NCBI GenBank assembly: GCA_022113835.1 | Contig: JAILWY010000025.1 | Coordinates: 1,178,001-1,242,000, forward strand | Origin: Atopsyche davidsoni | Lineage: Eukaryota > Arthropoda > Insecta > Trichoptera > Hydrobiosidae | DNA: 64,000 nucleotides | Reading direction: 5' to 3' | Shown here: piece after piece, positions 39,691-64,000 of the stretch | Layout: each line of letters begins with the position of its first letter | Position numbering within the stretch: position 1 is the stretch's first letter | Position numbers and translations under genes: made by a program | Notes under the pieces: generated by a model | What the model was told of the DNA's origin: nothing | Databases searched by the model: none | The model's input: the letters and a program-made list of their open reading frames with translations, nothing else

Positions 39691-41020
39691 TTAGCAGGGT
39701 GTCAGCTTCTGCATATGTGAATTGTTACATAAATACAAGGAACCTAGAGTGTCCACTCCAATAGCCGTTATTCCACTGTATCCTGTGATAACACGGACAG
39801 TCTTGGACGGAAGATCGATGGCATATAAAGCCACAGGATTGAGTATGTAAATCGTTTTATATATTGGATCCTGAATTATTACAATGGGTTTGATACGGTA
39901 AATTCCTGAAATCATAAAATAAAATATTTCAGTCATTGAAACCCCCAGAGAGACCGCAATTATAACTAGCTTAATTCAGAGCAACTGGTTCAGTAATGAT
40001 TTGAATGAGGTATATTATTGTCAACTGAATAATAACACCACTCATTTAGTATAGAAGGCCGCAAACGAGAAGACAGCAGGTAAAATCAACGAGAGACAAT
40101 TGCGATTGAAATTTGCGAACGCATCTTAATCCACCTTGGATACTTAGCAAGATTAAAACATTTCTGTATTCATACCTTCTATACTTTCAATTTCTTGGGT
40201 CGATTGCCGAAAAATGTAATATACTTGGTCTATAGAGTTGTAGTAGTAGATGTCGTTGGTATTTAAGTCAAATGTGAATTTTTCAATGCCAGCTGGTCCA
40301 GCAACTTTCTTTAACTTAAAGTTGTCCACATGATATAGACTCCCGCGAGACGTAGCAAATATTGATCCACATGAATTTTTTGCTATTGCATCAAAAGGAA
40401 AGTCCTATATAAAACAGCGGAAATATTTATTTAACAACATCTCTTATTGATATATATATATATATATATTTGCATGAATGGAAGTTCTTACCGATGGTAT
40501 GTACGAATAAATCGTATTATAGTTATAATATATCTGGAATCCTTTTGCATCCATTATGAGAAGTTTATTGTTTGTCACCATCTCCAGATCACTGTTTCCA
40601 AATAAGATTTCTTCAACAAAAAAAAGCTTATTTACAACACGGCTACGAAAGTTATGAGATAGCTGACATGCGAAAATAAATTTTACTAAATATTTTATAC
40701 TGCAAAATATGAAAACCTATGCACATTCCAACAAAACGCAAGGAAGCTACAGGATCGAGTGAAACATTTAAAAATTGATTTTATTATTTACCTGTTACTT
40801 CCTCGTGATGCATACTCTGCTGAAATGCTAAGTAAAGTATATCTTTGGCACCCTTTCTTCTTATGTAGTATATGTTATTTGCAGGATCAACGAGTATCCG
40901 GCCACGCACGTCCATGAATCCCAGCAGGGAGGAGGAGTACTTCCGGTCTGGTGAGAGCTCCTGGCAGTCCTGGGCGGCCACCACCATCAGGACACACCAC
41001 AAGAGCCACGCTGCCTTCAT
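39691..41020 (-). CDS. Secreted beta-propeller-like protein, copy A (intact; ommochrome-binding-protein-like?)
   Basis: Four coding exons: 41,020-40,792, 40,610-40,492, 40,404-40,176 and 39,905-39,691. All introns are GT-AG, the phases (1, 0, 1) fit, and they join to 792 nt, 263 residues. MKAAWLLWCVLMVVAA is a signal peptide, likely cut before QDCQ, so the protein is secreted. Blade-like units recur: GRILVDPANNIYYIRR (exon 1), KLLIMDAKGFQIYYN (residues 77-116), GSIFATSRGSLYHV with NDIYYYNSIDQVYYIF (117-192), and TAIGVDTLGSLYLCNN near the end, closing with TPC. Length and layout recall insect ommochrome-binding / SMP-30-like propeller proteins, which bind hydrophobic ligands in hemolymph; this is inference. 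The ATG at 41,020 is chosen because upstream in-frame codons lie before the acceptor TTTTTCAG. AATAAA follows the stop by 60 bases. B, C and D are paralogues. Confidence 0.8.
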
Positions 41021-41102
41021 GCTGGCTCCTGAAAAAGCCAAGCACTACTGTCACAGATACTTTTGATACAAAATAAAATATAAAGCTTAAAAAATATATC
41101 AT

Positions 41103-45350: not shown

Positions 45351-45389
45351 ACTAAAAACTTACTGAACTTACATGCAAAAAATCTTTTA

Positions 45390-46010
45390 AGATACTGTTA
45401 ACTGCTGATCAAAAAATAGTTTTAGAAAAAGTTATGCAACACGTAGCAAACGAAAGCGGTGGAATTATTTTCCTTGACGCACCTGGAGGCACTGGAAAAA
45501 CATTCATGCTCAATTTGATACTCGCTGAAATTCGATCGAATAATGAAATTGCACTAGCTGTTACTCGATGGCGGGCGTACAGCGCATTCAGCTCTTAAGC
45601 TTCCATTAAATGTTAACCATACCGAAACACCAACATGTAACATCACACTGCAGTTTTAAAAACAAGCTCACTTATTGTATGGGATGAATGCACTATGGCA
45701 AACAAGAAATCGCTTCAAGCTCTTGACCGTACTCTGAAAGATTTCAGAGAAAAAACCGATCAATGGGTGGAGCTCTATTGCTTCTTGCTGGTGATTTTCG
45801 ACAAATTTGCCAGTGATTCCAAGATCAACACCAGCCGATGAACTACTTAAATGCATGTTCGCAAAGCATCATATCTGTGGAGACATGTAGAGAAACGCAC
45901 ATTGTCGACAAATATGCGTGTGCATTTACTTCAAGATGCTGCTGCGCAGATATTCGCCAGACAGCTTTTGGATATGGGCGATGGAAAACTTCCGATCGAT
46001 TGAAAACTAC
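45390..46010 (+). pseudogene. Helitron PIF1-like helicase remnant
   Basis: PIF1/Helitron helicase motifs appear in order with frameshifts: LTADQKIVLEKVM, Walker A in FLDAPGGTGKTFMLNLILAE (about 45,465-45,525), AHSALKLPL-like words in another frame, Walker B LIVWDECTMANKKS (about 45,673-45,715), then MGGALLLLAGDFRQ (about 45,764-45,806). It ends in frame-shifted NMRVHLLQDAAAQIFARQLL-type sequence. The stops and shifts make it dead. It lies next to the opposite-strand Helitron end at 45,027, so it comes from a rearranged insertion. Confidence 0.85.

Positions 46011-46129: not shown

Positions 46130-46217
<88 letters not shown>
46130..46217. repeat. (TA)n microsatellite at the arm boundary
   Basis: About 88 bases of TA just outside the promoter of copy C. 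Confidence 0.95.
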
Positions 46218-46234
46218 GAAACATAATTATTAAC

Positions 46235-46357
46235 CACCCTGTAAATTCAAGTCTTATCAAAATATTCAGTATATAATAAAAGTAATCAATACTATCTCTT
46301 CATTCTGTCAGCGAAGATGTACGAACGTTTATTTAATAATATGACTAGATACTAAGT
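46235..46357 (+). promoter_or_regulatory. Promoter and noncoding first exon of copy C
   Basis: CTTATC (46,253-46,258), TATA-like TATATAATA (about 46,269-46,277), then CATTCTGTCAGCGAAGATGT as likely start. The 5'UTR exon ends at 46,355 with donor ACTAA|GTATTA. Promoter and donor remain in place although the signal peptide is lost downstream. Confidence 0.5.
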
Positions 46358-46432
46358 ATTAGTTAATTTTAAGTTTTTAATTTTTTTTGTATTTAAAATA
46401 TATTATTTAGTAGCTGTGCTTGCCTTTTTCAG

Positions 46433-47981
46433 GAGCCAATATGAAGACTACCTGGAGCTCTCGCCGGGCCGGAAGTACTCCTCCTCCCTGCTGGGATTCA
46501 TGGACGTGCGTGGCCGGATACTCGTTGATTCTCATGATAACATATACTACATAAGAAGGATGGATTCCAAAAATAAACTTTTCTTCTACGAGAAAAAAAG
46601 CGTGTCACACAGGGAAATTACAGGTAATTAATAAATTCAATTTATACATTTTAATGTTTCTTTTAATCTTGAAGCTTCCTTGCAGTTTGTTGGAATGTGC
46701 ATGGATAATTTTTTAGTATAAAACATTTCATACAGTTTATATGTTGTGGAAGTTGTATTAGAGATGCATAAAAACGCTGTTTGGTTATTATACGCATAAC
46801 AAACCCAATGTTGTCTATCTGATATATTTCCTTCCTATATTTTATAAATATTAAAAAAAAAATTTGTTGAAGATATCTTATCCGAAAACTATGACCTGAT
46901 GGAGCTTCTATCTAATAATCTTCTTATAATGGATGCAAAAGGATTCCAGTTATTTATTGACAATAAGATTACCTTATCCATACCATCGGTAAGAAATAAT
47001 ATATATATACAAATGTATAAATATATAACGAGATATATCAATAAGAGATGTTGTTAAATAAATATTTCCGTTGTATTACGTAGGTCTTCCATTTTGATGC
47101 AATGGCAAAAAGTTCAACCGGATCGATATTTGCTACGTCTCGCGGGAGTCTATATCATGTGGACGAAAGTGAATTAAAGCAAGTTAATGGACCACCAGGC
47201 ATTGAAAAATTCACATTTGACTTCACCTTCATCTACTACTATAACTCTATAGACAACGAGTACTGCGTTTATAGGTCATTAACAAAACAAATTGAAAAAA
47301 TAGAAGGTATGAATACAGAAATGCTTTAATCTTGCTAAGTATCCGGGGTGGATTAACAAGAAAATTAGCAGAGTCAAACGCAATTGTCTCTCGTTGATAT
47401 AACCTGCTGTATTTTAGTTTGCGGTCTTGTGTACTCAATGAGTGGTGTTATTAGTCAGTTGACAATTATATTCCTCAATTTATTACATTACAAAAATCAG
47501 AACTGATCCGTTGTTTTTGAATTAAGCTTATCATGTTTATCATTAAGTTTTATTATTATGTTTTAATATTATGTTTCTCTCTCATTAGGTGTCCATGTCT
47601 TGATTTAATTCTTATTTAAAATAAGGAATATCATGATTATATAAAATATGTTCCGTTGCGGTTTCAAAATGTATTGATAAATTAATGTGAATTCCAAGGC
47701 TGGAGGTTTCAATGACTGAAATGATTTCAGGAATTGACGGTTGTAGACCTATTGTAATGACTCAGGATCCAATATATAAAACGATTTACGTTCTTACTTC
47801 GGAGAATCTGTATGCCATCGAACCCCCATGCAATACTGCCCGTGTTGTCCCAGGATACACTGGAGCAACGGCTATGGGCGTGGACACCGAAGGTTCTTTG
47901 TACTTGTGCAACAATTTACACATGCAGAAGCTAGTACATCTTAAGTTGACGGATGCAGATTACGATATAGGTTTATGTTAA
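46433..47981 (+). pseudogene. Propeller-like gene copy C, signal peptide deleted
   Basis: Exons 46,433-46,623, 46,873-46,988, 47,084-47,306 and 47,731-47,981 keep GT-AG splice sites and matching phases. A 46-base deletion relative to A and B, right after ATGAAG, removes the signal peptide and the first cysteine and throws the ATG (46,441) out of frame. The family frame (YLELSPGRKYSSSLLGF) stays open but has no ATG before GFMDVRGRIL. The 3' end also differs: after NNLHMQKLV the usual ending is replaced by HLKLTDADYDIGLC, because a rearrangement at about 47,937 removed the normal stop and polyA signal. The unspliced upstream frame is hydrophobic (FKIYYLVAVLAFF) but lacks ATG. It is either a pseudogene or a gene using a non-standard start. 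Confidence 0.7.
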
Positions 47982-48657
47982 TGCTAACTTAACTGAGTGT
48001 AGTTATAATTAATGCTAAAATTTAATAAACTCAAAGTGAAGGCAAAGTACAAAGGTACTTTTATCATTATAACCTTGTTTACATTTTTAAATTATTCACC
48101 AAACTTATAAAATCCCCACATCTTGAGCTGAGTTACCACGTTACGGTAAAGGCTTTGTGGGACATCTTTGCTGTAATGATAATGTTTAAAAATTAAAACT
48201 TCATAAAAAAACTGAATCAAATATTTTCATTAAAGGAGATATATATGAATTCTCACTCAGTTTGTGAAACCGGTCACCAATCAAAAAATGACATGCGGAA
48301 AAATCACTCAAGTATTTTATTATATTTAAATACTCACACTTACATCCGTTCATATGATCTACACAGTTAGATATGCTATGAGCAACAGCCAATTATACCA
48401 AGGAAAAAGGTAACTCATAAATATTTTTAATACTTTAAATCAAATTTGAAAATTTATCCACGTGTTTGGCAAATATTTAAAAGCTGAAGATGTCCACTGT
48501 GAAGCGCAGAAGACAGAGGCCTGATCTCATGGGTGGAATGAATATATATGTTTTAAACCTTTTTATTTAAAATGTCTGTGTTCAAGACATTTATCAGGCT
48601 TTTAAATATATGACAAAATGAGCCTTTGGCATTCAAATATCAAAGAATACAACAAAT

Positions 48658-48982
48658 TTACTAATATGATTAGGCACATTAGTTCACATATACTCGTAGA
48701 AGATGATTTGAAGAAACTCTCAGAAAAATATCATCGTGATTTGTGTGGGATTTGAACCCACATCCCCTGGCTTACATGGCCGGTGTACGAACCTTTGTAC
48801 TAACGAATCACTTCCATTTATCGATAATTTTTAACAATCATACTCTACATATGAACCAATATTTAGTGATTTGCAAGCAGTGGACTTTATGAACAAAGTA
48901 ACAAGTGAAGCGATTTTAGTCCCATGTGGACATTATTTTTAAAATCTATTGATTTAGCCAAGACACGCACCTCGTATTCATA
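48658..48982 (-). mobile_element. SINE-like head and 5' extension (part of the insertion)
   Basis: On the minus strand: extension starting GCGTGTCTTGGCTAAATCAA, A box TAGTACAAAGG (48,792-48,802), B box GGTTCAAATCC (48,748-48,758), then the body to CATATTAGTAA. Of all copies the A and B boxes are best preserved here, with about 33 bases between them, as in tRNA-derived promoters. Confidence 0.7.
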
Positions 48983-49445
48983 TCTATCTAATATATATAA
49001 TAGCCATTGTGTGTTTGTATTGTTTGTATGTTTGTATATTTGTATGTGTGTATGTTTCGATTTTTGGTTTTCTATAGAATATCTTAAAAGATACAACGCT
49101 GATTTTTTGCACATAAGTTAAGTAAATTTTTCCGCAGCTATGTGCCGAATTTCAAGACGATAGGATAATATTTTCATTCATAAACTATAAAATATGCTTT
49201 AGCGAGTTTCAATATGTACGAATTATATAATTCTGTTTTTCGCCGCGAGATGTTGTTCACCGCGAGATTTTCAAATTTAGAACTTTTACAAAAAAATACA
49301 TTTCCAGTTTGTCAGTTTGACACAAGTGCCATCTCTATTTTTTTTATCGAAATTGCATTAGAAATGATGAACCACCTCATTAAGGCAGTTGCTCCCAGCC
49401 ATTTAATTGCCTCTGGTGTCCAACCGGACACCACAGTCAGTGCAT

Positions 49446-50035
49446 TACCTGGCGAAATCGTGTCATTTAATTAATTTAATTGTCACTTTATTTTTCTATA
49501 TCGAAATGATTAAGATAATTATTTTTTTTCCGATTGAATTGTAGGAATTTGGAGATTCATCTGGCCCATTTTACAAGAGTCCTAAACATTTAAAAGTTTT
49601 TTTTTAAATTGAAATTAAAAGATTAAATATAAACCATGTGCGCCATATTATTTTAAAAAATGACACGATTGGGCTGTCTCTGGTGTCCGGTTGGCACACC
49701 AGAGGGCAGTCCATTACCTGGCGAAATCGTGTCATTTAATTAATTTAATTGTCACTTTATTTTGCTATATCGAAAGTTGATTTTTTACACAGTATTGAAA
49801 AAACTATAAATTATATTTATCTAATTTTTATTATTTAATTAACGTCCATTTTTAGGGTAAAATAAAATCTTAAATATGTTGAAAAATTGGTTAAAATGAC
49901 GACTTTTCAAAACCAAAAGACGCACATGGTTTATATTTAATCTTTTAATTCCAATTGAAAAAAAGACTTTTAAATGTTTAGGATTCTTGGAAAATGTACC
50001 AGACGAATCTCCAAATTCCTACATTTTAATCGGAA
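49446..50035. repeat. Fold-back and direct repeat core inside the Helitron
   Basis: ATTACCTGGCGAAATCGTGT occurs directly at about 49,444 and 49,714. TAGGAATTTGGAGATTC and following words (49,543-49,650) recur inverted at 49,920-50,030. A short palindrome around GTGTCCGGTTGGCACACC lies at 49,690-49,707. Related sequence sits at 24,975-25,515 and 63,000-63,310, so this core may be an independent MITE. Confidence 0.65.
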
Positions 50036-50351
50036 AAACACATATTTATCATATTAATAGTATATTTATAAGAAATAAAAATATATTGTGTTCAGAAGAA
50101 GGGATGTACCAAACTTTTTACATTTAAATCTTATTGATTGGTGCAGTCGATTTTTCGCAAAACGGACTAGAAAATGATAAAAAAAACTCGATTATGGGAC
50201 CTAGACCCTTAATAACTCAAAATAACACCGTCTACGCACAGAAAACGTAATTCAACAAGAATTTCACAATTGAACGTGATAAAGACTGCATCAAATAAAG
50301 AACAGTGCAGTGAAAAGTGATGTGTTGTTTGTGACACGAAATGTGACATAA

Positions 50352-50840
50352 ATGTCAAGCAATGAGTTGGAAGGAAAACGTGAGCAGCGTCTTCTTAAAA
50401 TTCGAGTACGCGCATCGACCTCAAGACAAAAAGAAACTGATGCACAGCGAACGCTGCGTTTGTCTTCGGATTAATTAGTGTGACCTGTCGATTCTGCAAT
50501 GCTTTACATTATCAAGCAGAAAACCCATCAGATGGAAAGTTCAACGATTACTGTCACAAAAGTAAAGTGAAACTACCAGCAAGGCCTATTTCCCCAGTAT
50601 ATTTAAAGGATATTTATAATGGAAATTTCAAGAGAAAAATAAGATCATACGATAACAGTATATCTTCTGCATCAATGGGAACTAAATTAACAGTGGGCCA
50701 CTCTGCTTCAAAGTTCAAGGCCAAGTATATCACAGAACTTCATCCAACTGATGGTAGCAATGAAAGCAATTATTCATCTTATTATGTTCAAACACCATTG
50801 CATCGTTCATCGAATGCGCGTCATTCTATGACGGGATACA
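50352..50840 (+). pseudogene. Helitron Rep/helicase protein N-terminal remnant
   Basis: The start ATG (50,352) reads MSSNELEGKREQRLLKIRVR and a repeated R-L-S motif (AQRTLRLSSD), then TAA at about 50,471. Further on the frame holds a zinc-knuckle-like CRFCNALHYQAENPSD, FNDYCHKSKVKLP, PVYLKDIYNGNFKRKIRSYD and SASMGTKLTV, typical of the Helitron-like N-terminal domain (family usually CCxKGKV; here YCHKSKV). The catalytic HUH part is absent: the sequence loses similarity and then meets the 3' terminus. Confidence 0.8.
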
Positions 50841-51545
50841 TTTCTAGTGTTAATATAATAAGCCCGTAATGGGTAATAAATACGCATCTGATTGACTGAT
50901 CCATAACATAGATATAATACAACAAATGGCAGGTGGAAAGGTTTTAAAATTCGGCTTTCTAATTATTTACATCGATATCGTTGGACATTCTTTGACTGAG
51001 CTAAGGTTTTGTTTTGTTTGTTGAAAGGGAAAATGAATAAAATTTTAATGTTTTTAAATAAAAGTTCAACTATTTATATGCATAAAATAATATATTTTTA
51101 CTAAAATAATAAAACCTTAGTAGTATATTCAAGTCGGTGATTTGGTTTCCAAAGGACAATGTGTCCAGAGGGAGGGCTGAACTGAGGTTGCATCCATTTT
51201 GATATACATTATATATATTTTAAATATATTTATTAAAAAAAAACGCTACTTATTTATTTGGGGCAATAACCGATTATGTTTGCCTATTTTCCATTTATTT
51301 TAAGTGTTTTTAGGTAACTTTTTAAATTACAATTCAAAGATGAAACATCTAAATATTTATTGAACAATATTAACAAGGTCCAAATGGTGTCCAATCAAGC
51401 CAATATCTCCTCGGCTGTCATGGCTCAGTACGAGAGCGACGAAGGCTTTAGAACGCTAATCTTAAACAGTACAGTGTGATATTATAAAATTACTTAGTGT
51501 GAAAGCGATGGAACTGTCCAAAAATGAAATATTAAATCGATAGAT

Positions 51546-51771
51546 AAGGGTTTTCGGCTATATGAGACGCTGTGTCGAGGCTGTAGTGATCTTCTCCCAG
51601 TTCTCTTGTTTGCCATGTCACGGAATCGTAGAGCCTCATTTGCAGCCGAAGTCAATCTTCACTGGGGTGCAAGTTCCTTTATGTGACTGCACAAATGCTG
51701 GGAAGGCTTTGCTTGTGAGCACAGGATGGGAGTTCAAAAAAAACTAGCGACCGGTGGATGATTTTGAATCA
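51546..51771. repeat. GC-richer duplicated segment, possibly once coding
   Basis: About 225 bases recur inverted at 62,060-62,275 with few changes and are deleted from the block near 56,218. Plus strand is open (CVEAVVIFSQFSCLPCHGIV...). Minus strand has an ATG frame MRLYDSVTWQTRELGEDHYS followed by LDTASHIAENPYLSI. Neither peptide is recognised. Confidence 0.45.
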
Positions 51772-52205
51772 GAAGGAGTGCCTTGCCTGTCAGAACCTGG
51801 TTTATTATCAATGTTCTGGTATTTAGCCATATAATAAACCAAAAAAATATATCCTAACGGTTGCTTTTTAAATGGCAGATGAAAATAAATGGTTAAATTA
51901 TATATAATAGGTGAGATTCGAAACCACAACTCACACTCCATCTCATCGTTTTAAGGGTGGAATTTTTATCATAAATATATGCTTATTCAATTTAAATATA
52001 TACAAAACACACACACACACACACACATATATGTATATATATAAATATTTTTATTAGAAGTTATTTTATTTATGAATTCGCTGCGGGGAATTTGTATATT
52101 GGTTTATAAAATGTCCTAAAAATAATATTATCAGTAGGTTAATATATATATATATATATACTGTAAGTTTCAAAGCTCCTGATACACGATCCTGGCGGTT
52201 TCGCC

Positions 52206-53980
52206 TCAACAGGGTACCAGCTTCAGCATTTGTAAATTGTTACATAAGTACAAGAAACCCATAGGGCCCACTCCAATAGCCGTTGTTCCATTGTATCCTG
52301 TGATAATACGGGCAGTCGTGGATGGGGGATCGATGGCATATAGAGCCATGGTATTAAGTACGTAAATCGTGTTATATTTTGTATCCCGAATCATTGCAAT
52401 GGGTTTATCATGGCCAATTCCTGAAATCAAAATTAATCACACCTTTCAGTCATTAAAACATCCAGCCTTGGCATATCATGTTAAGTCGTTCAAACACGTT
52501 GAGACCGCAATGGAATTTAGTTTTATAATCATGATATTCATTACTTTAATGAGAAATAAATCATGCCACGGATACAATAGAAAAGAGAAACATAATATTG
52601 ATGCATAATATTAAAACAGAATAATAAACATGATAAGGTTATTAAAAGATACTGGATCTAAGTTTTACTATACTATAATCAACTGACTAATAACACCACT
52701 CATTAAGTATACAAGACCGCAAACTAAAAGACAGCAGGTTAAATCAATCAGAGACGATTGCGTTTAAGTCTGCTAATTTTACTGTTGCTAACAGATTTTT
52801 ATTCGCGTTCGTACCTCAATAAACAATATTACTGAGTTGTTTTTAATAATGTCTTAATGAACATCAAATATGCCTACGTTCTATCTTTGTTCATTTTATA
52901 TTTTAAAAAACTTTAGACATGTTGAATGCAAGTGGCTATGGGTTAATTAGATGCTTTGCATGGCATTGTAAAATAGTATTCAGACCACGGGGGTTGTGCT
53001 TTCAGTTGCTTTCGAGCACGAACATTTATTAATCCACCCCGGATACATAATTTAAGCAGTTCTGTAATCATACCTTCTATTTTTTCAATTTGTTTTGTTG
53101 ATGACCGAAAGATGCAGTACTCGTAGTCTATGGAGTTGTAGTAGTAGATGTCGTTTGAGTAAAATGTGAATTTTTCAATGCCTGGTGGTCCAGGAACTTG
53201 CTTCAATTCATCCCCGCGCACATTATAAAGACTCCCGCGAGACGTAGCAAATATCGAATCAGCTGAATTTTTTGCCATTCCATCAAAAGGTACTTCCTAT
53301 ATAATACAACGGAAATATTTATTTAACAGCATCTTTTCTGATATATCCCGTATTATTTATATTTATTTATTTATACATATATGCATTAATGGAAGTCCTT
53401 ACCGATGGTATGGACATATCAAGTTTATTATAGTCAAATTTTAGGAATCCTTTTGCATCCATTATGAGAATTACATTACTCGTCATCAACTCGACGTCAC
53501 TGCTTTCTGATAAGATTTCTTCAACAAATATTTACTGAATTATTTACAAAATATGAAGAAATAAATTGTTAGATTAAATTGAGCTCATTGTGCGTAAGTT
53601 AACCAAACAGCGGTTTTACTTATCTCTCACATACAAACATAAAATCACAAAATAAATATAAAAAACTTGAAATCTATGCGCTTTCCAACAAACCGCGAGG
53701 AAGCAAAAATATTAAGTGAAACATTAAAATTATTATTTTTTTTTTTTTATTTACCTGTTACTTCAATGTGGATATTTTTAACTGCTTGCTTTCTGTATAT
53801 TATATTTTTTGAATCCGTTCTTCTTATGTAGTATACGTAATATCCATCAACAAGTATCCGGCCGCGCACGTCCATGAAGCCCAGCAGGGAGGAGGAGTAC
53901 TTCCGGTCCGGTGAGAGCTCCTGGCAGTCCTGGGCGGCTGCGACCATCAGGCCGCACCACAAGAGCCAAGCTGCCTTCAT
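52206..53980 (-). CDS. Secreted beta-propeller-like protein, copy B (intact)
   Basis: Four coding exons: 53,980-53,755, 53,518-53,403, 53,296-53,074 and 52,420-52,206, with GT-AG borders and phases 1, 0, 1; joined length 780 nt, 259 residues. Signal peptide MKAAWLLWCGLMVAAA, then QDCQELSPDRKYSSS. It has the same blade-like units as copy A: GRILVDGYYVYYIRR, VILIMDAKGFLKFDYN, DSIFATSRGSLYNV with NDIYYYNSIDYEYCIF, and TAIGVGPMGFLYLCNN near the end (LVPC). Exon 1 is nearly identical to A while exons 2-4 differ strongly. Intron 4 carries an extra 245-base insertion (52,781-53,027). No AATAAA is seen in the short 3' stretch before the inverted-repeat arm begins near 52,140. It is the only family member in the spacer of the inverted repeat. 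Function as for A: inferred extracellular ligand binding. Confidence 0.8.
52781..53027. mobile_element. Insertion in intron 4 of copy B
   Basis: Copies C and D lack about 245 bases between CTGCTAATTTT and TTAATCCACCCCGG. The inserted piece has weakly inverted ends (CGTTCGTACC near the left, GAGCACGAAC near the right). It matches no repeat elsewhere in the window. Confidence 0.5.
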
Positions 53981-54062
53981 GCTGGCTCCTGAAAAAGCCA
54001 TGCACTGCAGTTATAGATATTTTAAATATAAAATAAAATTTAAAGCTTAAAAAATATATCAT

Positions 54063-54210
54063 ACTCAGTTTCTAGGAGAATTATTAAATAAGCGTTCGTA
54101 TATCTTCGTTGGCAGAATGTAAAGACATAATTAAACACTTTGATTTTTATATGTACTAAATATTTTGATAAGACGAAAATTAACAGGATGGTTATTATAT
54201 ATAAATATAT
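54063..54210 (-). promoter_or_regulatory. Promoter and noncoding first exon of copy B
   Basis: GATAAG (54,167-54,172 plus strand), start-region CATTCTGCCAACGAAGATAT, 5'UTR exon ending at 54,065 with donor CTGA|GTATGA, acceptor TTTTTCAG before 53,988. Close to the A version. Confidence 0.55.
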
Positions 54211-54237
54211 ATATAATATATATGTATATATATATAT

Positions 54238-54335
54238 ATATCACTTAGCATAAATTAATCCTGAATAGTTCATATATAAGTTGTTCATGGTTTTCTAAAG
54301 AGAAAATAGTATATTGGGTCCCCGGGTCCTTCTAT
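54238..54335 (+). repeat. Dispersed repeat family R, partial copy
   Basis: GCATAAATTAATCCTGAATA, AAGTTGTTCATGGTTTTCTA and GGGTCCCCGGGTCCTTCTA follow the family order. Confidence 0.6.
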
Positions 54336-54340
54336 ATGTG

Positions 54341-54373
<33 letters not shown>

Positions 54374-55779
54374 TGTTACAACTATTCTAAAACACTCATT
54401 ATAATAGCCTACACTCTACAGCAGTGCTTTTTAAAATTAAAATTGCAACATACACCATAGTAAATAACACCTATAAAAATATCTCAGTCTCCAAATAATA
54501 ATATTGATAAAAAAAATATTTTTTTTATTTTTAGTGTAGAATAATCAATTTTCAAATAAATATATATTTATTTATATATAAAACAAATCTTATATTTTAA
54601 ATATAGTAAAATACTTGATATATAGTATATATCTAAAAGAATTATTAAATAAACGTTCGTACATCTTCGATGACAGAATGCAAATACAGAATTAAATTTA
54701 CGCACGAATTTTATTAAAATTTATATGATTTGAACATTTTTTTAAACGATCAACGATTTTTTTTAAAATTATGAAATACAGAAGAGTTGGGATTTTTTAA
54801 ATGTTTTGGCAAAACCAGCATGCACACTTTGAAACAAGCAGAAAGGTTGGCGAAACCGGTCACCAATAAAAATTAATATGTGGAATACTCAGTCAAGAAT
54901 TTTTTATTTAGAATAAAATATTAAAATGAAATTCCACCAAATACTACATATATGTCAGAAATATTGAATTTCTTATAGTTCTTAGGGCTTGCAATACAGC
55001 GCGTGGCTATGTCATATAAGTTACAGATATTTTTTAAAGCGAAACCACTGAAGGGTCAAAGACCAGAAGAGTAATAAGAACCGAGGGCCAATCTGTCGCT
55101 TTGCTGAAAAAAACAATGAATAAAATTTATTAAATATGCATCTAACATGATGTTCAAAAAAACTTATACAAATTATTCTGACTTTCACACTCATTGACCT
55201 CAAGGAAGACGATCAAAAATATATGAAAATAATAACTTAACTTCATTTTAAACCACCGATAAACAGGTGAAGGAAGAAAAACATAAAGTTATGGTGTGTG
55301 CATATAATCCTACAACCCTTTACTTTTTTATCATAAAAATATATTATTTCTTAAAAATTATTCATAGATATTAACTAATTCATAAATGAAATCAAATACA
55401 GCTCGTTGTATTTTATTGATTTATGTCACTAATGGGTCAATTCGACACTTCAAAGACACTTGGATATGAAATTTATCATAAAAACGTGTTTTATGGTGTT
55501 AAACTTAATATCGCACAAAACTCTAAAGAAACCAAAGATCAAATTTAGACACCATTAAACTAAACACCCAAATAATGGCGTCAATACAATGATTTTATTC
55601 TGATCGGGGATAAATACCAACTTTTCACACAATCAGTAATGTAAAATACAATAATTATTTTTTAGGAAACCTCCTGTAAATTCGAGATAAGATAAAGTAT
55701 TTCCTTAAATTTTTAATCTATCAGTAGTCACGTTCATATATGCGTGTGTGATTATATCTAATCATTTTAGGACATGATT
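54336..55779. other. Spacer upstream of B, mostly noncoding
   Basis: Holds the stray first exon at 54,636, a single fold-back arm (GCGAAACCGGTCACCAATAA at 54,831-54,850) and, from about 55,500, flank sequence shared with 41,960 and 61,490 (ACACCATTA, ATGGCGTCAATACAA). No gene recognised. Confidence 0.5.
54636..54681 (-). pseudogene. Orphan first exon / promoter of the gene family
   Basis: GCATTCTGTCATCGAAGATG followed by TACGAACGTTTATTTAATAA matches the noncoding first exons of A-D. The donor GTAT position is altered (TAGATATATACTA) and no coding exons follow before B's own first exon at 54,065. It may be a relic of a lost copy or an alternative upstream first exon for B. Confidence 0.6.
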
Positions 55780-55919
55780 ATGCTCCTACTGATAGTATTA
55801 TTTTTAGAACATTTTATCTTATCGTCATTTACTTGAATTCGAAACCAATATACCAGTTCCCTGCAGCGAATACATAAATAAAATAATTTCTAATAAAAAT
55901 ATTTATATATATACATATA

Positions 55920-55950
<31 letters not shown>

Positions 55951-56972
55951 ATTTTGTATATATTTAAATTGAATAACCATGTATTTATGATAAAGATTCC
56001 ACCCCCAAAAACGATGAGATGGAGTGTGAGTTGTGGTTTCGAATCTCACCTATTATGTATAATTTAACTATTTATTTTCATCTGCCATTTAAGAAGCAAC
56101 CGTTAGGATATATTTTTTTGGTTTATTCTATGGCTAAATACCATAACATTGATAATAAACATGGTTCTGATAGGCAAGGCGCTGATTCTGATTCAAAATC
56201 ATCCACCGGCCGCTAGTTTTTTTTTCTCGTATAGCCGAAAAGCCTTATCTATCGATTTATTTATTGCATTTTTGGACAGTTCTATCGCTTTCACACTAAG
56301 TAATTTTATAATATCACACTGTACTGTTTAAGATTAAAGTTCTAAAGCCTTCGTCGCTCTCGTACTGAGCCATGACAGCCGAGGAGATATTGGCTTGATT
56401 GGACACCATTTGGACCTTGTTAATATTGTTCAATAAATATTTAGATGTTTCATCTTTGAATTTTAATTTACAAAGTTACTTAAAAACACTTAAAATAAAT
56501 GGAAAACAGGCAAACATAATCGGTTATTGCCGCAAATAAATAAGTAACGTTTTTTTTAAATAAATATATTTAAAATATATATAAGTATATCAAAATGGAT
56601 GCAACCTCAGTTCAGCCCTCCCTCTGGACACATTGTCCTTTGGAAACCAAATCACCGACTTGAATATACTACTAAGGTTTTATTATTTTAGTAAAAATAT
56701 ATTATTTTATGCATATAAGTAGTAGAACTTTTATTAAAAAACATTAAAATTTTATTCATTTTTCCCTTTCTACAAACAAAACAAAACCTTAGCTCAGTCA
56801 AAGAATGTCCAACAATATCGATGTAAATAATTAGAAAGCCAAATTTTAAAACCTTTACACCTGCCATTTGTTGTATTCTTTGAGATTTGAATGCCAAAGG
56901 CTCATTTCGGCATATATTTAAAAGCCTCATAAATGTCTTGAACACACAGATATTTTAAATAAATAGTTTTAA

Positions 56973-57034
<62 letters not shown>

Positions 57035-57502
57035 TTCCACCCATGAGATCAGGCATCTGTCTTCTGCGCTTCACAGTGGACATCTTCAGCTTTTAAATAT
57101 TTGCCAAACACGTGGATAAATTTTCAAATTTGATTTAAAGTATTAAAAATATTTATGAGTTACCTTTTTCCTTGGTATAATTGGCTGTTGCTCATAGCAT
57201 ATCTAACTGTGTAGATCATATGAACGGATGTAAGTGTGAGTATTTAAATATAATAAAATACTTGAGTGATTTTTCCGCATGTCATTTTTTGATTGGTGAC
57301 CGGTTTCACAAACTGAGTGAGAATTCATATATATCTCCTTTAATGAAAATATTTGATTCAGTTTTTTTATGAAGTTTTAATTTTTAAACATTATCATTAC
57401 AGCAAAGATGTCCCACAAAGCCTTTACCGTAACGTGGTAACTCAGCTAAAGATGTGGGAATTTTATAAGCTTGGTGAATAATTTAAAAATGTAAACAAGG
57501 TT

Positions 57503-57690
57503 ATAATGATAAAAGTACCTTTGTACTTTGCCTTCACTTTGAGTTTATTAAATTTTAGCATTAACTATAACTACACTCAGTTAAGTTAGGCATCTGATGA
57601 TGACCTAGTCTATTTGGTCGAAACTAGTAATGCAAAAAATTTAATAAACTCAAAGTGAAGACAAAATACAAAGGTACTTTTATCATTATA
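57503..57690. repeat. Fold-back repeat with about 60-base arms
   Basis: TAAAAGTACCTTTGTACTTT and the following CACTTTGAGTTTATTAAATT (57,503-57,556) are inverted at 57,637-57,690. The loop holds the hammerhead-like core. In the left arm of the large palindrome (48,000-48,075) only one arm of this fold-back is left. Confidence 0.8.
57590..57633 (+). ncRNA. Hammerhead-ribozyme-like motif (candidate)
   Basis: In order: GCAT, CTGATGA (57,594-57,600), stem II GACC...GGTC (57,602-57,605 / 57,616-57,619), GAAA (57,620-57,623), a tiny stem III AC-TA-GT, the H17 position A (57,629), then ATGC pairing with the first GCAT as stem I. Two-base-pair stems III are known in newt satellite and Penelope-like retroelement hammerheads. 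The extra T between CTGATGA and stem II departs from the consensus, so activity is doubtful. Confidence 0.4.
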
Positions 57691-58030
57691 ATAATGGATC
57701 TTCACCAATCAAATGCCTTGTCCCTCAACAAGAGTAAACTAGGTTTTTTTAAAACAATTTAATTAGTGTTATGATAGCTTTCGGACCTAGGAAAGATTTA
57801 CATATGTGCAATTTACAGCAAGATAAAACACAATTTTATAACTGGATGATGAAAATTCATTTAATATATTTAATAATAGTCGTTGTTACAATAATAAAAT
57901 ATAACAGGTTATTAAATTAAATGAAAAACGCTATTTCATTCTAAGATATGACACTTTTTATTGGCATAAAAAAACCATATATTATACATAATATTCAAAG
58001 GTCGTGATTCACGGACCTGGCGGCTTTGTC
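57691..58030. other. 3' flank of copy D
   Basis: Contains the 3'UTR and AATAAA of D on the minus strand (57,957-57,962). The remainder is AT-rich, with no gene. Confidence 0.6.
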
Positions 58031-58981
58031 TTAACAGGGTGTCAACTTCTGCAAATGGTATTTGTTGCATAAGTACAAGGAACCTTTGGAGTCCACGCCC
58101 ATAGCAGTTGCTCCAGTGAATCCTGAGATAACACGAGCAGTATTGAACGGGGGATCGATGGCATACAGATCCTCAGAATTAAGAACGTAAATCGTATTAT
58201 ATTTTGGATCCTGAATCATTACAATAGGTCCATAATCGTCAATTCCTGAAATCATAAAAAAAACCTTTCAGTCATTGAAACCTCCCGCCTTGGTATTTAC
58301 ATTAATTCATTAAAACATTTTGAAACCGCAAAGGAACCTATTTTGTATAATCATGATAGTCATTATTTTAAATAAGAATTAAATCATGACATGGACACTT
58401 CATGAGAGAGAAACATTATATTAAAACATAAAAATACAACTTAATGATAATCATTATTAGCTTAATTCAAAGAAAACGGATCAGTTCTGATTTTTGTAAT
58501 GTAATAAATTGAGGTATATAATTGTCAACTGACTAATAACACCACTCATTGAGTACACAAGACCGCAAACTAAAATACAGCAGGTTATATCAACGAGAGA
58601 CAATTGCGTTTGACTCTGCTAATTTTCTTGTTAATCCACCCCGGATACATAATTTAAGCATTTCTGTATTCATACCTTTTATTTTTTCAATTTCTTTTGT
58701 TAATGACCCATAAATGCAGTACTCGTTATTTATAGAGTTGTAGTAGTAGATGTCGTTGGTATTGACGTCAAATGTGAATTTTCCAATGCCTGGTGGTCCA
58801 GTAACTTGCTTTAATTCACTCTTGTCCACATGATATAGACTCCCGCGTGACGTAGCAAATATCGATCCAGATGAATTTATTGCCATTGCATCAAAAGGGA
58901 TGTCCTACATAGTACAACAGAAATATTTATTTAACAACATCTCTTATTGATATATCTCGTTTTATATTTATACATTTAAAC

Positions 58982-59023
<42 letters not shown>

Positions 59024-59647
59024 CATATAAAAAATATATATCTATATATATAGATGGAATTCCTTACCGATGGTATGGATAAGGTAATCCTATTGTCAGA
59101 AAATTTCTGGAATCCTTTTGAATCAATTATAATAAGGCAAGTGATATTAATCACCATCAGGTCACTGATATCAGATAAGATATCTCCTACAAATTTTTTT
59201 TTTTATTATTTACAAAATATGGGAACGTAATATATCAGATAGATAACATGCGTTTGTTATGCGTATAATAACAAAACAGCGCTTTTATGTATCTCTAATA
59301 CTACATCCACAACATATAAACAGAAAAACCACAAAGTAAATAAATTTTTCATTCCGTTTTATACCTAAAAGTTATATATGCACTTTCCAACAAACTGCAA
59401 GGAAGCTTCAGGATTGAGAGTAACATTAAAATGTAAAAATTGAATTTATTGATTACTTTTTATTTCCCTGTGTGAATCAATACGAGTCTCATAGAAGTAA
59501 AGTTTATTTTTGAAATCCATCCTTCTCATGTAGTATATGTTATCATGAGAATCAACGAGTATCCGGCCATGCACCTCCATGAAGCCCAGCAGGGAGGAGG
59601 AGTACTTCCGGCCCGGCGAGAGCTCCAGGTAGTCTTCATATTGGCTC
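58031..59647 (-). pseudogene. Propeller-like gene copy D, signal peptide deleted
   Basis: Exons 59,647-59,457, 59,183-59,068, 58,904-58,676 and 58,245-58,031 keep usable splice sites and phases, and the normal ending (LQKLTPC, TAA) and polyA signal remain. Exon 1 has the same 46-base deletion as copy C, so the ATGAAG start is out of frame and the signal peptide and first cysteine are gone; the family frame (YLELSPGRKYSSSLLGF) stays open. The exon 1 donor is weakened to AAAAA|GTAATC. Blade-like units persist: GSIFATSRGSLYHV, NDIYYYNSINNEYCIY, TAMGVDSKGSLYLCNK. Open frames without a start suggest either recent death or an unknown upstream coding start. Exons differ from C much more than the introns do. 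Confidence 0.7.
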
Positions 59648-59723
59648 CTGAAAAAGGCAAGCACAGCTACTAAATAATATATATTAAATTAAAAATAAAA
59701 TTAAAAACTTAATATTAACTAAT

Positions 59724-59850
59724 ACTTAGTATCTAGTCATATTATTAAATAAACGTTCGTACATCTTCGCTGACAGAATGAAGAGATAGTATTGATTACT
59801 TTTATTATAAACTGAATATTTTGATAAGACTTGAATTTACAGGGTGGTTA
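59724..59850 (-). promoter_or_regulatory. Promoter and noncoding first exon of copy D
   Basis: GATAAG (59,823-59,828 plus strand), start-region CATTCTGTCAGCGAAGATGT, 5'UTR exon ending at 59,726 with donor ACTAA|GTATT. Nearly the same as the C version. Confidence 0.5.
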
Positions 59851-59882
59851 ATAATTAAGTATATGTATTATATATATTATTA

Positions 59883-60181: not shown

Positions 60182-60850
60182 TAAGAGGTGGCGTTACTAC
60201 TATACTCGCATCAGGCTATACTTAAACATTTCATTGTGAAGCGTCATTATTGCGCTTTTGTTTTCAGTATATGTCATATCTCTGAAATGTTTACAACATT
60301 TTATTTTGAGCTCTCAACATGTCAACTTTTGTACCAACAAAACGCAATTTCCGGGAAGCTTTACTTTTCTGTTTCAATTGGAAGAAAAAACCAGCTGAAA
60401 GTCACCGATTGCTGTGTGAAGTTTATGGTGAACATGCTCCATCGCAACAAATGTGTGAGAACTGGTTTCGACGCTTCAACAATGGTGATTTCGATGTGGA
60501 TGACAAAGAACGTCAAAAGATGAAGAATTTGAGGCATTGCTCGATAAAGACTAGTGTTAAACGCAAGCAGAACTCGCGGAATCATTGGGAGTTGATCGAG
60601 CAACAATTTCAAGACACTTGAAAGCATTGGGAATGATCCAAAAGCAAGGAAATTGAGTGCCACATGAATTGAAGCCGAGAGACGTCGAAAGGCGATTTTG
60701 CATTTCGGAAATGCTGCTTGAACGCCACAAAAAAAAAGTCATTTTCACATCGTATCATCACTGGTGATGAAAAGTGGATTCGTTACGACAACCTGAAGCG
60801 TAAAAAATCATGGGGTAAGCCCGGACATGCATCAACATCGACGGCCAGAA
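60182..60850 (+). mobile_element. Mariner element, 5' two thirds
   Basis: The left end TAAGAGGTGGCG follows TA (60,180-60,181) and is related to the left end of the copy at 33,325. The right end is missing: sequence switches at about 60,852 to unrelated GC-rich DNA. Confidence 0.8.
60319..60850 (+). pseudogene. Mariner transposase N-terminal remnant
   Basis: It starts MSTFVPTKRNFREALLFCFN and has the helix-turn-helix region (SHRLLCEVYGEHAPSQQMCE, WFRRFNNGDFDVDDKERQ). A small deletion then shifts the frame; remains of LGVDRATISRHLKALGMIQK and GDEKWIRYDN (first catalytic Asp) follow in other frames up to GHASTSTA. Frameshifts, a TGA in QGN*VPHELKPRD, and loss of the rest make it inactive. Confidence 0.85.
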
Positions 60851-63599: not shown

Positions 63600-64000
63600 T
63601 TATTCAAAGTATCATCACATTTTTGTCATTTCTCTGGCAGTACACGAATACCGTGACGATAAAACGACGCGTCGGACCGAAACCGTTCAAGCATCCAATT
63701 TTCCACTTTTTCAAAATTGGCCAAGTGTAGCCCAGCCAATCCATGCGCCATCGACCGGAACAAATAAAAATCGGAAGGGGTCAGGTCTGGTAAATAAGGC
63801 GGGTGTGGTAGCAGATCCCATTTCAGCGTTTTGATGGTGTCCTGGACGATGGCACGAAGCTTTGTCGTGCTTCAATATCATTCGTTCGTGTCTCGTGTCC
63901 CATTCCGGCGGTTTTTCGAGCACTGCAAGGGTCAAATTGATCAGTTGTTGTCGGTAGCGCTGCCCATTGACAGTTTCGCCTGGTTTCAGAAGCTCCTAGT
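63600..64000 (-). pseudogene. Mariner transposase C-terminal part, running off the window
   Basis: Read on the minus strand: LLKPGETVNGQRYRQQ, LTLAVLEKPPEWDTRHERM, ILKHDKASCH (second catalytic Asp; family usually HDNA), then in another frame YLPDLTPSDFYLFRSMAHGL (third Asp) and GIRVLPEK before TGA. The frameshift between the Asp motifs and the changed HDK show decay. The N-terminal half should lie beyond base 64,000. Confidence 0.85.

Follow-up and report, generated by a model that had tools for sequence, protein, structure and literature searches.

Divergence between paralogues C and D, two members of a cluster of four related genes in a window of 64,000 nucleotides from the trichopteran Atopsyche davidsoni, is a mosaic of nearly identical and strongly diverged stretches and not a split between exons and introns. 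The most probable explanation, and one we hold with reasonable confidence, is that patchy gene conversion between two inverted arms, together with weak constraint and clustered replacements in the proteins, has produced a pattern in which the exons appear to have evolved faster than the DNA around them.

The four genes, A to D, lie within 39.6-59.9 kb of the window, C on the plus strand and the other three on the minus strand, and each is modelled with four exons whose borders and phase are conserved across the copies, the models resting on an open frame and GT/AG borders. Paralogue A runs from 39,691 to 41,028 (exons 41,028-40,792, 40,610-40,492, 40,404-40,176 and 39,905-39,691) and paralogue B from 52,206 to 53,988 (exons 53,988-53,755, 53,518-53,403, 53,296-53,074 and 52,420-52,206), and both have an in-frame ATG and an N-terminus that, judged by eye, is signal-peptide-like. 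The first exon of C with homology to the family is exon 2 (46,433-46,623), whose reading frame the old ATG no longer matches; it is followed by exon 3 (46,873-46,988), exon 4 (47,084-47,306) and exon 5 (47,731-47,981), whose final ~50 bases cannot be aligned to A, B or D. In D, exon 2 (59,457-59,647) carries the same deletion as C and is followed by exons 3 (59,068-59,183), 4 (58,676-58,904) and 5 (58,031-58,245). BLAST places C with its flanks and D with its flanks in an inverted repeat, B sitting between the arms, the left arm covering 46,202-52,138 on the plus strand with interruptions at ~48,658-50,915 and 51,568-51,735, and the right arm 55,785-59,877 on the minus strand. Mariner-type remains are also present in the stretch, alongside introns.

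An earlier note on this DNA had reported, from a hand alignment, that the exons of C and D differ far more than their introns. Its count for exon 3 (25 differences in 116 bases) is exactly reproduced, and for exon 4, where it gave about 20 differences and an indel, we find 24 in 223 bases and one indel of 6 bases. Exons also exceed introns over the gene as a whole, with raw counts of 104/745 against 71/762 (p=0.006), and of 94/730 against 54/704 (p=0.0013) once columns at indel edges, in microsatellites and in the non-homologous C-terminus were dropped (C coordinates 46,720-46,736, 46,859-46,868, 46,989-47,019 and 47,931-47,983). Under a circular-shift control that keeps the clustering of differences, 46 of 1434 shifts confined to the gene body were as extreme, and 3 of 2217 when the flanks were included; introns no more alike than exons, the outcome that the note had named as fatal to its reading, is not what is seen for this pair. 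The claim that the introns have changed by only a few percent fails, their raw divergence being 13.7% (34/248) in 46,624-46,872, 9.5% (9/95) in the microsatellite-ridden 46,989-47,083 and 6.7% (28/419) in 47,307-47,730, and no more than 174 intron bases, almost all of them from the third of these introns, are near-identical. Most exon changes do alter an amino acid, as had been stated (75 of 100 are replacements by the Nei-Gojobori method), but this is not an excess since ~77% of sites (553/720) are replacement sites.

Among the six possible pairs a significant exon excess was found in C-D only, which favours conversion as its source. The comparison of A with B is reversed, with an exon deficit (p=1e-8), A-D also has a significant deficit, and in A-C, B-C and B-D the difference is non-significant. 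Faster exons, as would mark a secreted family of the venom-gene type under diversifying selection, are therefore not a property of the whole family, being significant in one pair of six, with the proviso that the deep intron alignments are poor.

The C-D alignment, 2440 columns with 216 differences, was divided by a two-state segmentation, the rates and switch probability of which were chosen by us and not fitted, into three low tracts and a set of high stretches. Tract 1 (46,224-46,552, plus strand; 8/329 differ, 2.4%) takes in the 5' flank and 120 bases at the start of exon 2 and spans the site of the deletion, tract 2 (47,339-47,512, plus strand; 1/174, 0.6%) lies within intron 4, and tract 3 (47,984-48,557, plus strand; 5/574, 0.9%) lies in the 3' flank. 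The high stretches have 110/780 and 77/471 differences, the second of these including the non-homologous end of the last exon of C, with 12/106 in a further one at the 3' end and 3/6 in a short one at the 5' end, so that the tracts lie among stretches diverged by 11-16%. The single mismatch that had been noted in 48,170-48,545 of the downstream flank is upheld, as an identical run of 392 bases (48,126-48,517) is followed by one of 39 bases, and none of 5000 permutations gave a run as long as the former. A run of 133 identical bases in intron 4 is likewise unexpected (p=0.0008 over the region; 0/5000 among introns alone), and three more of 94-98 bases have p values of 0.02-0.03. From this alignment, conversion-like tracts between C and D are well supported, and we infer, from the copies of a single genome, that gene conversion produced the low tracts, the segmentation and the run-length permutations agreeing on the mosaic. 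Farther out, divergence of the arms is also uneven (identity falls from 96.3% across 654 columns to 85.9% across the following 440), as conversion would lead one to expect.

The earlier suggestion that conversion had homogenised the surroundings but spared the exons is borne out as to the tracts, with their runs of 392 and 133 bases, but not as to the sparing, as tract 1 enters exon 2. The tract edges do not coincide with exon borders, and the initial 120 bases of exon 2 (3/120 differ), about 98 of which fall in the conserved mature-like part, are as alike as the 5' flank (5/209); since tract 1 covers these exon bases, the edges of homogenisation disregard exons, although three tracts are few from which to judge how they are placed relative to exons. 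Selection may, we infer, have had some part in where the tracts stopped.

Scaling the C-D differences by those fixed between A/B and C/D, in ungapped four-way columns, gives 99:31 for exons and 44:20 for introns, ratios that do not differ significantly (p=0.30), whilst the 200-base upstream flank stands at 5:30 (p=3e-11 against exons, p=2e-7 against introns). Because the scaled exon and intron ratios are similar and that of the flank is far lower, it is the upstream flank and not the exons that is the outlier, as conversion of that flank would predict. A similar upstream deficit exists between A and B (19:30), and the 5' flank is slow in that pair too (20/200), so constraint may contribute there.

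C and D are an inverted duplicate pair, and sites expected to be near neutral have diverged by ~10% outside the patches (introns 53/530; four-fold sites, counted over the whole frame, 8/74). Under the favoured explanation, ectopic gene conversion between the arms would later have brought three or more patches back to 0.6-2.4%, one joining the 5' flank to the beginning of exon 2, one within intron 4 and one in the 3' flank, and as these patches are mostly non-coding the exons would look relatively fast. The leftover excess (14.9% against 10.0%) would come from weak overall constraint and local clusters of amino-acid changes, some of them perhaps adaptive. The exon and intron rates in and out of the tracts are in keeping with this, as is a four-fold rate over the whole frame close to that of the introns.

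A quite different history, in which C and D duplicated recently (at an age matching the 0.3-1% of the flank) and one or other of them took in its divergent patches from further paralogues, the donor perhaps lying outside the window, is to our minds very improbable. It gains something from crosswise characters, which pair A with C and B with D, or else A with D and B with C, and make up 15 of the 99 exon differences between C and D and 16 of the 44 in introns, counts given without an expectation for homoplasy, which at such divergence can also yield crosswise patterns. An indel of 5 bases at the start of intron 4 sets A and C apart from B and D, and exon 4 alone fails to favour the tree AB|CD (lnL -611.5 against -610.5 for AD|BC). 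Against an import, 52 of the 99 exon differences occur in one copy only, in near-equal shares (27 in C, 25 in D), and the introns outside the tracts are 10% diverged as well. The crosswise patterns and the exon 4 tree do hint at more exchange among all four copies, and conversion between the A/B and C/D clades, which we considered as the main cause, may have contributed to the mosaic.

Conversion does not account for all of the exon excess, as outside the tracts exons differ at 91/610 positions (14.9%) and introns at 53/530 (10.0%; p=0.016), with 65/410 against 31/312 in the first such block (p=0.02) and 26/200 against 22/218 in the second (p=0.36). Diversifying selection on a secreted protein, acting chiefly on the closing part of exon 2 and the central part of exon 3, could have driven the exons past the neutral rate, a reading that we regard as fairly unlikely. 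In its favour, replacements outside the tracts are more frequent than intron changes (pN 0.150 against 0.100, p=0.017), but the Nei-Gojobori silent rate there, 0.171, is likewise raised above introns (p=0.025). Over the whole frame dN/dS for C-D is 0.89 (dN 0.149, dS 0.167; Nei-Gojobori), which is not well below 1, the value at which the earlier note would have given up its case, and zero falls within the bootstrapped range of dN-dS (-0.093 to 0.053). Exon 3 alone reaches 1.92, on just 3.5 silent changes; the other five pairs have values of 0.68-0.92, and the mean is above 1 in none of the six.

Site models on 237 codons, those gapped in any copy having been removed, give strong apparent evidence for selection when dS is held constant (2dlnL of 40.8 for M1a/M2a, 43.0 for M7/M8 and 40.8 for M8a/M8). 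We rejected these models as evidence, as a null with two synonymous-rate classes fits better than the selection model that lacks them (lnL -2216.1 against -2223.9), and when selection is added to that null the gain is 2dlnL 1.1 (p=0.57) on the tree AB|CD and 3.3 (p=0.19) on each of the other two trees. Neither dN/dS nor the site models with variable synonymous rates demonstrate diversifying selection.

There is a further point in its favour in the arrangement of the changes, as exon differences are clustered (26 pairs at lag 2 against 14.2 expected, with none of 2000 shuffles as high) and clustering was not found among the C-D intron differences. Multi-nucleotide mutation was tried as a cause of the clustering and rejected, there being no excess of adjacent pairs in the introns (2 against 5.1 expected). 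Silent third positions in unchanged codons differ between C and D at 3/39 sites near clusters and 10/131 away from them, and a significant rise near clusters was found in none of the six pairs. Codons variable between A and B, which were picked blind to C and D, have a C-D pN of 0.191, well above introns (p=0.0013), although their pS is also up, at 0.245; in the remaining codons pN is 0.101 and pS 0.103. Taken as a whole this amounts to a weak hint that the C and D proteins have been pushed to change.

Both C and D are without 46 bases found in A, the signal-peptide region being removed and the old ATG no longer in frame with the mature sequence, and both frames are open downstream to the stop, for ~250 codons each. 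That C and D are recently dead genes, the deletion possibly having been carried from one copy to the other by the conversion of tract 1, is a serious possibility, though one that we would not quite favour, and it is compatible with the other readings. In the flank common to C and D there are two ATGs but a phase-compatible start exon was not found, nor was a start exon common to both found elsewhere in the window, although one could lie beyond it or escape the scan. Open phase-2 candidates upstream number 12 for C and 14 for D, against 11 in one shuffle of the C side, and hydrophobic ones 4 on the C side and 1 on the D side, no more than the 5 in one C-side shuffle; furthermore exon 5 of C has lost its family-like end.

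Against death of the genes, the simulated chance that both frames would stay open with all C-D exon changes unconstrained is only ~0.01, so that death was late if it occurred at all, and neutrality alone predicts exons equal to introns, not higher. If only the latest exon changes were unconstrained, open frames would be unsurprising, the simulated chance being 0.41 at the divergence of tract 1 (about 9 changes per copy). These figures fit a history in which C and D stayed under constraint through most of the time since they separated and their start went late. Lastly, C and D, as inverted copies of a rapidly evolving gene for a secreted protein, may have been caught between conversion, homogenising the 5' flank, part of an intron and the 3' flank and perhaps spreading the start-destroying deletion, and selection driving a few protein segments apart, a combination that we consider distinctly unlikely.

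The family to which these genes belong may resemble the lepidopteran ommochrome-binding proteins in size (~260 residues), signal peptide and repeating strand-like motifs, a likeness that serves as a lead only; the collections searched, which suit animals poorly, yielded no relative. A protein-database search with B gave 212 candidates, none at an E value of 1e-3 or below. A Pfam scan of A, B and C gave nothing above cut-off (the best, Tectonin at E=0.18 for B, was below its own cut-off), and a PDB search with B returned two matches, both with E above 1. An alignment of the four proteins gave 229 pattern stretches in viral contigs and 83 in prokaryote genome contigs, with no relatives by tblastn in either of these non-animal collections. 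Taken together, these searches have no bearing on how novel the family is.

The cluster shows in small compass that positive selection can be mimicked by a patchy, conversion-like mosaic, as both an exon divergence above that of introns and a strongly significant constant-dS site model lose force when simple controls are applied. Should comparison with relatives show that the clustered segments have diversified, the locus would offer a useful natural setting in which to weigh selection against conversion.

The pattern belongs to a known kind, of which CEACAM32 of ruminants, so far as the part of the account drawn on here goes (PMC7042247), is a close precedent and one that favours conversion. 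There, conversion detected with GENECONV is described in the introns and leader exon and was not found in the mature-protein exons, which differ strongly, and the gene is expressed. The likeness lies in the significant conversion-like tracts in intron 4 (p=0.0008) and the 3' flank (0/5000) of C-D, found by permuting run lengths, a test comparable in type to GENECONV; the difference is that tract 1 overlaps the first part of the mature-coding exon 2, and that C and D may have no usable start. In viperid three-finger toxin genes, as presented in the portion of PMC2474615 used here, exon segment switching leaves introns alike and some exon segments sharply different. C and D also have alike intron segments and sharply different exon segments, but their exon blocks differ by clustered substitutions in few codons and their introns outside the tracts are 10% apart, and no kinship to the toxins is claimed. 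Finally, a review of Caenorhabditis paralogues (PMC3966223) reports, in the part drawn on here, that interlocus conversion tracts reach into introns, as do the conversion-like tracts between C and D, although the genes are different and that part of the review describes no case of exon divergence above that of introns like the one found here.

A deletion of 46 bases relative to A, one of the four paralogues, is common to C (46433-46480) and D (59647-59600), the two genes carried on the left and right arms of the inverted repeat; through it most of the signal-peptide region has gone from both genes, and it also leaves their ATG out of frame. The site of this shared deletion falls within the conversion-like tract 1, a patch of low C-D divergence that takes in the 5' flank and the first 120 bases of exon 2. 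At the start of intron 4 there is a 5-base indel (47331-47335 in C), the bases being present in A and C and absent from B and D, a distribution that is contrary to the grouping of A with B and of C with D. The end of the last exon of C (47931-47981) does not align with A, B or D, the family-like stop is missing and the frame extends for approximately 12 residues into other sequence.

Long AT microsatellites are found in the right arm at 58985-59052, within intron 3 of D, and at 56976-57031; the tandem-repeat list has no such microsatellite at the corresponding left-arm positions.

Transposon remnants were identified by Pfam scan, with matches in three of the ten reading frames scanned: a Mos1-type HTH (60310-60618), a Transposase_1 match scoring slightly below the cut-off (63714-63995) and a PIF1-helicase fragment (45356-45595), which we infer to be Helitron-like. 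The left arm itself contains an insertion (48658-50915) with a tRNA-Thr-like stretch on the minus strand (48,736-48,809), and its segment 48,658-48,860, further copies of which lie near 22.0, 29.0 and 9.1 kb of the window, is perhaps a tRNA-derived SINE.
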